Below the pieces are notes generated by a model. It saw only the letters and a program-made list of their open reading frames with translations, did no database searches and was not told the origin of the DNA. Source: Bacteroidota bacterium (GTDB lineage Bacteria > Bacteroidota > Bacteroidia > Bacteroidales > F082). Taken from it: a stretch of 64,000 nucleotides of DNA. The DNA lies in contig JABMPH010000504.1 in NCBI GenBank assembly GCA_013203805.1, positions 1 through 64,000 on the forward strand. Direction: 5' to 3'. The translations under genes and the position numbers were made by a program. Of this stretch, positions 59,574-64,000 are shown one piece after another; the first letter of the stretch is position 1, and every line of letters begins with the position of its first letter.

Positions 59574-59640
59574 AATTAATTTACACAACAATGACAATAC
59601 TTATCTAGAAAAGGTTGTTAAATAGGTGTTAAACGGTATT

Positions 59641-59706
59641 GAGTTTTTGGTTTAGAGTTTAGGGTTTTGGGTTTAGAGTTTTGAGTTTAGAGTTTTGGGT
59701 TTTTGA
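59641..59706. repeat. Telomere-like GTTTAGAGTTTTGGG degenerate tandem repeat
   Basis: The 66 bases repeat units such as GGTTTAGAGTTTAGGG and GTTTAGAGTTTTGAG with small variation. This sort of sequence is seen in intergenic DNA of other Bacteroidota. It lies after the cyd operon (minus strand) and could be part of its 3' end. Confidence 0.7.
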
Positions 59707-59801
59707 GTGCGGTTGTGGCTTATTATGAAGATTCTCTTTGTACGACCGTGGTTACCAGTGGAGAATTCCAAATTATCTCAAAACTTCCAGAATATTGTAC
59801 A

Positions 59802-59912
59802 TTATTTGGACAGTTTCTTGTCGAACTTTTTTACAGCAAACAAAACAATCCTGTAACTAAGGTAAATAAAAACAGGCCAGCTAATTAGCCAAAGTATTTC
59901 AGTTGTATACAT
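59802..59912 (-). CDS. 36-residue single-pass membrane protein after cydB (CydX-like candidate)
   Basis: ATG at 59910-59912, TAA at 59802-59804. The peptide MYTTEILWLISWPVFIYLSY continues with a hydrophobic stretch (RIVLFAVKK) and a charged tail (KKFDKKLSK), so there is one transmembrane helix with a positive C terminus. It starts 17 bases after the cydB stop on the same strand. CydX, CydY and CydH-type subunits of cytochrome bd oxidases are also short single-helix proteins encoded next to cydAB, so a structural subunit or assembly role is plausible. No sequence identity with E. coli CydX is claimed. Confidence 0.6.
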   Translation of the reverse strand: MYTTEILWLISWPVFIYLSYRIVLFAVKKFDKKLSK

Positions 59913-59929: not shown

Positions 59930-61087
59930 TTAATAAGCGTGTGTGTCTTTTTCCATCTCATCTTCGGTTATCTTCTTTTTATTTAACGCAGACCATGCAT
60001 ACCAAATATAGGCAATTACAAATGGGACAATCAATGATACATACGACATTGCCACAAGCGTATAATTAGAGGAGGAGGCATTCTGAATTGTTAATGAACT
60101 TTGTAGGTCGTAGGTTGATGGATAAAAACATGTGTTATTAAATCCAGCAATAAGAAACAAGGCAAAAACTGTTAAAATTGTCCCACCACCGGTGATCCAA
60201 ATTGCTTTGTCGCCACATTTTTCAAAGTAGAAATAGCCCTTTATTATCCCAAATATTACTGCGACTACACCAGCCAGAAAAATTACTCCAACAACAGGCA
60301 TTTCCCATAGATTTAATAAATATTTATGCGCTTCCATTGAAACTTTACCGTTAACGGGGTTATAAGCAAAACCATCAATAATAATGATACTTGCCAGAAA
60401 AAATAAAAAGATGGCTAAGAAAGGGATTGCATTTGTAATCAATTGTTTTTTCGCCCGCTTTAGTATTGCGGTGTCATCAATACTATTAATGAAATACATC
60501 GATGCCAGTACTCGGGATAGAAAGAAAACTGCTAATCCCAGTGATAAGTTTACATAAGTTCCATATCTCATGAAATTAAAAGCGAGTTCAAGTCCTCGAT
60601 AGGGGGTTTCCCAAGTTGAACTATTCATATTATTAATTGAGAATTCAGAGCCAGTGAAAAAAGTACCAACAGCTGTTCCTATTAGTATTGTTCCCAATAA
60701 TCCGTTGATAAACAAGAAGGTTTCATACGTACGAGAACCAAGGAAATTATTTGGCTTGGAACGATATTCGTACGAAACAGCTTGAAAAATAAACGCAAAT
60801 AATATTAGCATCCATACCCAGTAAGCTCCACCGAAACTGGTTGCGTAAAACAATGGAAATGAAGCAAATGCAGCACCTCCAAAGGTTACAAGTATCGTAA
60901 ATGTTAAATCCCATTTGCGACCAAGGGCATTTATTATTATTTTTCGTTGGAGGTCGGTTTTACCCAGAGTATAAATTAATGTTTGCCCACCCTGAACGAA
61001 CAGCATAAACACCAAAATTGCACCAAGGAGAGAGACTACTGCCCACCAGTAATGCTGTAGTGTTAAGTAACTTAGATTTTCAAACAT
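59930..61087 (-). CDS. cydB: Cytochrome bd ubiquinol oxidase subunit II
   Basis: 385 residues with about nine membrane helices. With CydA it forms the high-affinity terminal oxidase that reduces O2 to water with quinol. Family-like parts are LQHYWWAVVSLLGAILVFML, FVQGGQTLIYTL, LGRKWDLTFTILVTFGGAAF, ASFPLFYATSFGGAYWVWML, YEYRSKPNN and NNTCFYPSTYDLQSSLTIQN. It starts 3 bases after the cydA stop, so translation is probably coupled. A short membrane ORF follows at 59912. Confidence 0.95.
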   Translation of the reverse strand: MFENLSYLTLQHYWWAVVSLLGAILVFMLFVQGGQTLIYTLGKTDLQRKIIINALGRKWDLTFTILVTFGGAAFASFPLFYATSFGGAYWVWMLILFAFIFQAVSYEYRSKPNNFLGSRTYETFLFINGLLGTILIGTAVGTFFTGSEFSINNMNSSTWETPYRGLELAFNFMRYGTYVNLSLGLAVFFLSRVLASMYFINSIDDTAILKRAKKQLITNAIPFLAIFLFFLASIIIIDGFAYNPVNGKVSMEAHKYLLNLWEMPVVGVIFLAGVVAVIFGIIKGYFYFEKCGDKAIWITGGGTILTVFALFLIAGFNNTCFYPSTYDLQSSLTIQNASSSNYTLVAMSYVSLIVPFVIAYIWYAWSALNKKKITEDEMEKDTHAY

Positions 61088-62639: not shown

Positions 62640-62852
62640 CTATTTAATATTGGTAATTTGTTCTAAAACATGATTACTACGCTCTTCATCAGTGCTAAAA
62701 TTTGTTTGTAAAATATTGGGGAAAAAGAATATTTTTAGTATTACAAACATGACGAAAAGCTTAATCAGAATTATTAACCACAGTTTTTTGCCTATGGTCA
62801 TATTCCGAAATCCATCTATGTAAAATCTTAGTATCCTTTGTAAAAAACCCAT
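62640..62852 (-). CDS. DUF4492 membrane protein, first gene of the cyd operon
   Basis: 70 residues from ATG at 62850-62852; 9 more codons upstream are open, but MGFLQRILRFYIDGFRNMTI is the usual family start. One hydrophobic helix (about 24-43, LWLIILIKLFVMFVILKIFF) follows an amphipathic N terminus. DUF4492 is regularly found directly before cydA in Bacteroidota and may help assembly of the bd oxidase; this is inferred from its position. It ends 7 bases before the cydA start. Confidence 0.88.
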   Translation of the reverse strand: MGFLQRILRFYIDGFRNMTIGKKLWLIILIKLFVMFVILKIFFFPNILQTNFSTDEERSNHVLEQITNIK

Positions 62853-62876
62853 ACTTTGAAAAGAGTAATATATTAA

Positions 62877-62884
62877 CAAATATA
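62877..62884 (-). promoter_or_regulatory. Possible -7 promoter element of the cyd operon
   Basis: On the minus strand TATATTTG fits TAnnTTTG and lies 24 bases before the DUF4492 ATG at 62852. A -33 TTTG was not found at 19 bases. Confidence 0.4.
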
Positions 62885-63509: not shown

Positions 63510-64000
63510 CTAATTTACCAAAGGTTCAATACTAAGTACCAGTATCATTATTAATACAAAATAGTTAATCCTCATAAAATAATAGAATGGGTTAAAGTTT
63601 TGAGTACGAGGGTTGAGTAATTTTGAGAAAACAGCTATTAGCCATATTGATGCTACCAATATCATTATTTTAAATATTAGAAGGCTAATTAGTCCTGACA
63701 TTGCAACCATTAAAGCTGATACTGCGGTGGCAACCGTCCATAAAAATGTGGAATTTTTTACTTGTTGCTTGCTTATTTTGGAGGTAATTGATGGGAAACC
63801 AGCTTTGTTATATTCCTCACCATATTTAAGCATCAGTAGCCAAAAATGAGGAACCTGCCACATAAAGAAGAAAAGACCCAGGACCATAGCTTTTGGATCA
63901 AGAAGACTTCCCCCGGCAGCAACCCATCCAACCAGTGGTGGGATTGCACCAATAACACTTCCCGGAATTACAGCAAATGCGGTTTTGCGTTTTAGTGGAG
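63510..64000 (-). CDS. ctaB: Heme O synthase (protoheme IX farnesyltransferase), 5' end outside window
   Basis: About 163 codons of the C-terminal part. It attaches farnesyl to haem b, giving haem O for cytochrome oxidases. Motifs are SVIGAIPPLVGWVAAGGSLL and LGLFFFMWQVPHFWLLML, followed by YGEEYNKAGFPSI; the end is four hydrophobic helices. The frame is open to the edge of the window, so the first half of the gene, with the NDxxD prenyl-binding motif, lies outside. It implies a haem-copper oxidase in the same genome in addition to cytochrome bd. Confidence 0.93.
   Translation of the reverse strand, partial: PLKRKTAFAVIPGSVIGAIPPLVGWVAAGGSLLDPKAMVLGLFFFMWQVPHFWLLMLKYGEEYNKAGFPSITSKISKQQVKNSTFLWTVATAVSALMVAMSGLISLLIFKIMILVASIWLIAVFSKLLNPRTQNFNPFYYFMRINYFVLIMILVLSIEPLVN

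Follow-up and report, generated by a model that had tools for sequence, protein, structure and literature searches.

Several one-helix proteins have been described in cytochrome bd oxidases. CydX of E. coli lies along helices 1, 5 and 6 of CydA, where it is held to clamp the bundles that bear the haems; its C-terminus is cytoplasmic, and Glu25 was called a "float" (PMC6853902). Older papers had predicted a periplasmic C-terminus of CydX (PMC4325964, PMC5322542). Glu or Asp at position 25 follows Trp6 in all CydX homologues but one (PMC4325964). Another one-helix protein, CydH (YnhF), sits between helices 1 and 9 of CydA in E. coli bd-I (PMC8951039), and CydZ accompanies CydA of the short-Q-loop type (PMC4325964). 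CydY was published in 2014 and described in Epsilon- and Deltaproteobacteria (PMC4325964). CioY of C. jejuni, published in 2025, consists of 34 aa, was recovered with CioA in reciprocal co-immunoprecipitation and was modelled at the CydX position on CioA (PMC11955535). Its authors equated CioY with the CydY of Allen et al. (PMC4325964; PMC11955535). The name CydY is also in use for another E. coli subunit, namely CydH/YnhF (PMC8951039). Searches of the open-access literature yielded no account of CydY in Bacteroidota, and one paper states that Porphyromonas gingivalis lacks cydX, cydY and cydZ (PMC4668044). The present analysis extends the CydY/CioY family to Bacteroidota, where its absence is patchy.

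The window analysed here is a stretch of 64,000 nucleotides from a bacterium of the order Bacteroidales (contig JABMPH010000504.1). It contains a cyd operon (Table 1), which is transcribed from the minus strand in the order DUF4492 gene, cydA, cydB and a short ORF with an ATG start. The product of this ORF is MYTTEILWLISWPVFIYLSYRIVLFAVKKFDKKLSK. The cydB stop codon occupies positions 59930-59932, leaving a gap of 17 nt before the ORF. The original prediction, which was made from the letters alone, had placed an unannotated membrane ORF of 36 residues 17 bases past cydB; coordinates, length, sequence and gap were all found to be correct. For the DUF4492 gene, the internal ATG at 62852 is more likely to be the start than the TTG, judging from the lengths of the homologues. 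The next same-strand gene 3' of the short ORF encodes a protein of 968 aa; its type IX secretion tail (TIGR04183) is in keeping with a Bacteroidota genome. A scan for promoters and terminators gave no more sites than were found in shuffled sequences.

Table 1. Genes of the cyd operon in the window.
Feature	Coordinates	Strand	Remarks
cydY/cioY homologue (assigned by sequence)	59802..59912	-	36-aa single-helix protein; stop codon within coordinates
cydB, cytochrome bd subunit II, 385 aa	59930..61087	-	PF02322, 224 bits
cydA, cytochrome bd subunit I, long Q-loop, 513 aa	61091..62632	-	PF01654, 560 bits
DUF4492 protein (CydW of P. gingivalis), 79 aa from TTG	62640..62879	-	PF14899, 109 bits

The window ORF matched no model of Pfam or NCBIfam beyond weak and implausible hits. 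Among 173 genomes of the same family, a protein search yielded 29 relatives at E<3e-4, the window ORF not counted. All of these lie 3' of cydB on the same strand at gaps of 10-146 nt, mostly of 17-31 nt; 28 of 30 are within 31 nt, and two stand farther away, at 108 and 146 nt. In their alignment Trp12 and Pro13 are invariant, and Ile6, Trp8, Tyr20 and Lys29 are nearly so. When 247 genomes of the order, 182 of them with cydB, were searched with a profile, 101 matches at E<1e-3 were obtained in 99 genomes. Ninety-nine of the 101 stand downstream of cydB on the same strand, as read from the coordinates of a listed cydB for 80 matches and from fetched loci for the other 21, in 19 of which cydB is directly upstream. 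Of the two exceptions, one is truncated by a contig end and one is displaced. The gaps are mostly within about 100 nt, with three at 400-610 nt; the homologues are 33-45 aa long, and their WP motif is near-invariant. The original prediction had proposed a search for the same ORF after cydB in relatives and had named the lack of a conserved start, length or helix there as refuting it. This search was run and the prediction withstood it, a clear homologue being present in 99 of the 247 genomes.

The median dN/dS is about 0.13 (61 comparable pairs). Codon positions 1, 2 and 3 differ at rates of 0.27, 0.13 and 0.49, so that the third position varies nearly four times as often as the second. Because of the conservation linked to cydB, the dN/dS value and the codon-position pattern, we concluded that the window ORF is a conserved protein-coding gene under purifying selection. 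A chance ORF in the intergenic region has the small size of the ORF in its favour and nothing else. This explanation is extremely improbable and is refuted by the conservation; the low dN/dS, the fixed start and place, and the lack of the ORF from 51 comparable loci also contradict it. These 51 long-type cydB loci, which gave no profile match, carry no ORF with the motif in that place, a pattern unlike that of random ORFs 3' of cydB.

A single-sequence AlphaFold2 model of the product shows one helix at residues 3-35 with a mean pLDDT of 86, and the tail is rich in lysine (KKFDKKLSK), in agreement with the hydrophobic helix and positive tail first proposed for it. The length, the single helix and the basic tail are also found in small toxins, which speaks for the alternative of a free hydrophobic peptide unrelated to the oxidase, such as a translated leader or a toxin of type I. 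We regard such a peptide as very unlikely, since 99 of the 101 copies follow cydB, over many genera and two phyla, and nothing in Rfam matched near the window ORF. Moreover, the ORF is the last of its operon and thus cannot lead cydAB.

The second phylum is Campylobacterota, whose genomes were reached via a 16S pattern. All of 11 cydB loci have a one-helix ORF of 32-42 aa located 5-30 nt after cydB. The order DUF4492 gene, cydA, cydB, peptide was found in 10 of the 11 loci; at the remaining one, from Thiovulum, the peptide follows cydB and DUF4492 was not placed. The C. coli peptide has 34 aa, the published length of CioY (PMC11955535), and it was this length of 34 aa together with the location, rather than an accession, that identified the Campylobacterota peptides as CydY. 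In hhalign, the alignments of the Bacteroidota peptides and Campylobacterota CydY matched end to end over 37 columns with a probability of 98.4% and an E-value of 5e-15. BLASTP of the window ORF itself gave 54% identity over 28 aa with the peptide of Sulfurospirillum cavolei (E 3e-11) and 52% over 27 aa with that of Campylobacter concisus (E 5e-10). With Pfam, both alignments gave just weak, implausible matches, as did the Campylobacterota alignment with NCBIfam.

The two groups also share particular residues. W12, P13 and Y20 of the window family fall in the same columns as in Campylobacterota, which places the Tyr at Trp+8 in both, and an acidic residue occupies Trp+19 in 81% of 57 Bacteroidota sequences and in 8 of 10 from Campylobacterota. 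The window ORF thus has the place after cydB, a CydA with a long Q-loop, no cydX in its operon, the Trp, Pro and Tyr residues, and significant sequence similarity, together with a length near 32-42 aa and a DUF4492 gene before cydA. On these comparisons the window ORF is classified as a member of the CydY/CioY family. The Bacteroidota members differ from Campylobacterota CydY in three respects: most (54 of 57) have another Trp four positions before the key one; residues +16 and +17 are a basic pair, whereas Campylobacterota CydY has an Asn at +14 and mixed residues; and presence within the order is patchy.

The ORF had been called a CydX-like candidate. Like CydX/AppX (PF08173), it follows cydB, has about 37 aa, forms one helix and has its key Trp in the first half with an acid 19 residues on. 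However, BLASTP and hhalign comparisons of the window ORF with E. coli CydX found nothing, and PF08173 did not match it at E 10, while the same library scores E. coli CydX at 54 bits. Of the CydX motif YxxWxxGx15E/D, the Trp and the acid at +19 are there; the Tyr at Trp-3 and the Gly at Trp+3 are missing. The protein is therefore not CydX, and CydY or CioY is the better name; the functional half of the suggestion probably stands, and the protein may well work like CydX. Among the other one-helix proteins of bd oxidases are CydZ (DUF2474) and CydS of Geobacillus. CydZ was rejected, since PF10617 was unmatched and the partner CydA has a long Q-loop here. The operon encodes a further small membrane protein, CydW (DUF4492, PF14899), but its gene lies upstream of cydA, and the protein has about 70-80 aa and belongs to a separate family.

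The Q-loop span of the window CydA measures 141 residues; the E. coli protein has 138 there, and short types have 71-81. The alignment of the window CydA with 6rko_A and 7ose_A continues across the Q-loop. Within the order, the window-type ORF occurs solely at loci of long-Q-loop CydA; none of the 15 short-Q-loop loci carries it, and those 15 also lack DUF4492. DUF4492 precedes cydA in nearly all examined long-Q-loop operons of the order and of Campylobacterota. It may be the unnamed upstream hydrophobic protein mentioned by Allen et al. in 2014. A search of the open literature on DUF4492 found no papers, and one on cydW found a single paper.

Not all long-Q-loop operons of the order have the ORF. 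A further 55 cydB loci gave no profile match, 51 of them being of the long type. In these 51 no motif-bearing ORF was found within 300 nt of cydB, and no relocated copy was found at E<1e-3 elsewhere in the genomes of ORF-less loci, while DUF4492 is retained in 48. The existence of these 51 long-Q cydAB operons indicates that cydY is not generally required. On a tree of CydA, 33 of the 51 form one supported clade and the remainder are scattered. At least 10 changes of the presence/absence label are seen on this tree, at least 6 of them on well-supported branches, as counted on a sample enriched for ORF-less loci and on a tree that does not separate gain from loss. We favour the interpretation that cydY is an old gene that would have been lost repeatedly, since homology and the same operon order are found in Campylobacterota. 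Some losses look recent, since genomes with one genus code differ: G571 is without the gene and G477 and G649 are with it, and G642 is without it and G562 with it. The clade of 33 operons without cydY (L071-L123, as against L125-L144) has mostly kept DUF4492. A search across the wider phylum gave no credible match outside the order; besides the window, that sample held two genomes of the order, both ORF-less. The reported absence from P. gingivalis (PMC4668044) is compatible with cydY in Bacteroidota, since a large clade of the order is without the gene and sister lineages have it.

With regard to function, we consider it very probable that the ORF, as cydY, closes a cydW-cydA-cydB-cydY operon and encodes a one-helix subunit clamping CydA in a long-Q-loop bd oxidase. 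In favour of this reading are the position after cydB, the homology and gene order shared with Campylobacterota, the restriction to long-Q-loop loci, the selection on the gene and the binding of CioY to CioA. The CydY helix would run with its N-terminus outside and its C-terminus inside along transmembrane helices 1, 5 and 6 of CydA. It would thus occupy the slot that is taken by CydX in E. coli and, as predicted, by CioY in C. jejuni. There it would clamp the haem-bearing helix bundle of CydA and would aid assembly and stability rather than electron transfer. Trp12 would lie in the outer half of the membrane, with Asp31 (Trp+19) and the lysines at the cytoplasmic face; a cytoplasmic C-terminus is predicted from the lysine-rich tail. 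The spacing between Trp and acid is common to CydY and CydX (Trp6-Glu25), which is suggestive only of a shared register: the chance of this agreement alone is roughly one in ten, by an estimate that assumes about 10 open tail positions.

Alternatively, the peptide could belong to the same oxidase but act differently or sit elsewhere on it; like CydH (YnhF), for instance, it might plug the entry of oxygen or quinone. In E. coli both sites are filled by single-helix subunits (PMC8951039), and the absence from 51 loci would suit optional tuning better than an assembly factor. Such a role is nevertheless improbable. The published model places CioY on CioA in the CydX position (PMC11955535), and the peptide has in common with CydX its location 3' of cydB and its acid at Trp+19. 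CydH of E. coli, moreover, is encoded outside the operon (PMC8951039).

Related oxidases with and without CydY are natural pairs, in which the effect of a one-helix clamp on haem stability is testable. The phylogenetic pattern of CydY is likewise worth testing, and the alignment obtained here is supplied for a subunit that is missed by the annotation libraries. More tentatively, two mini-subunits, CydW and CydY, might have been part of the long-Q-loop bd oxidase from which those of Bacteroidales and Campylobacterota descend. CydY, CydX and perhaps CydS might then be unrelated or very distant helices in one slot, the occupant of which a large Bacteroidales clade would have lost while keeping CydW; the CydA of that clade would then have to hold its haems unclamped or by means of a compensating change. 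We offer this scenario as a possibility that we ourselves find rather doubtful.

Three minor observations concern individual loci. At locus L310 (genome G484) the peptide is intact, and an unrelated gene of about 390 codons occupies the expected place of cydB, an apparent displacement or insertion. In the window, a degenerate repeat with units resembling GGGTTTAGAGTTTTG lies at 59635-59710, directly 3' of the ORF. At the window edge (63510-63998), a partial gene for a UbiA-family prenyltransferase (PF01040) is located on the same strand upstream of the cyd operon.
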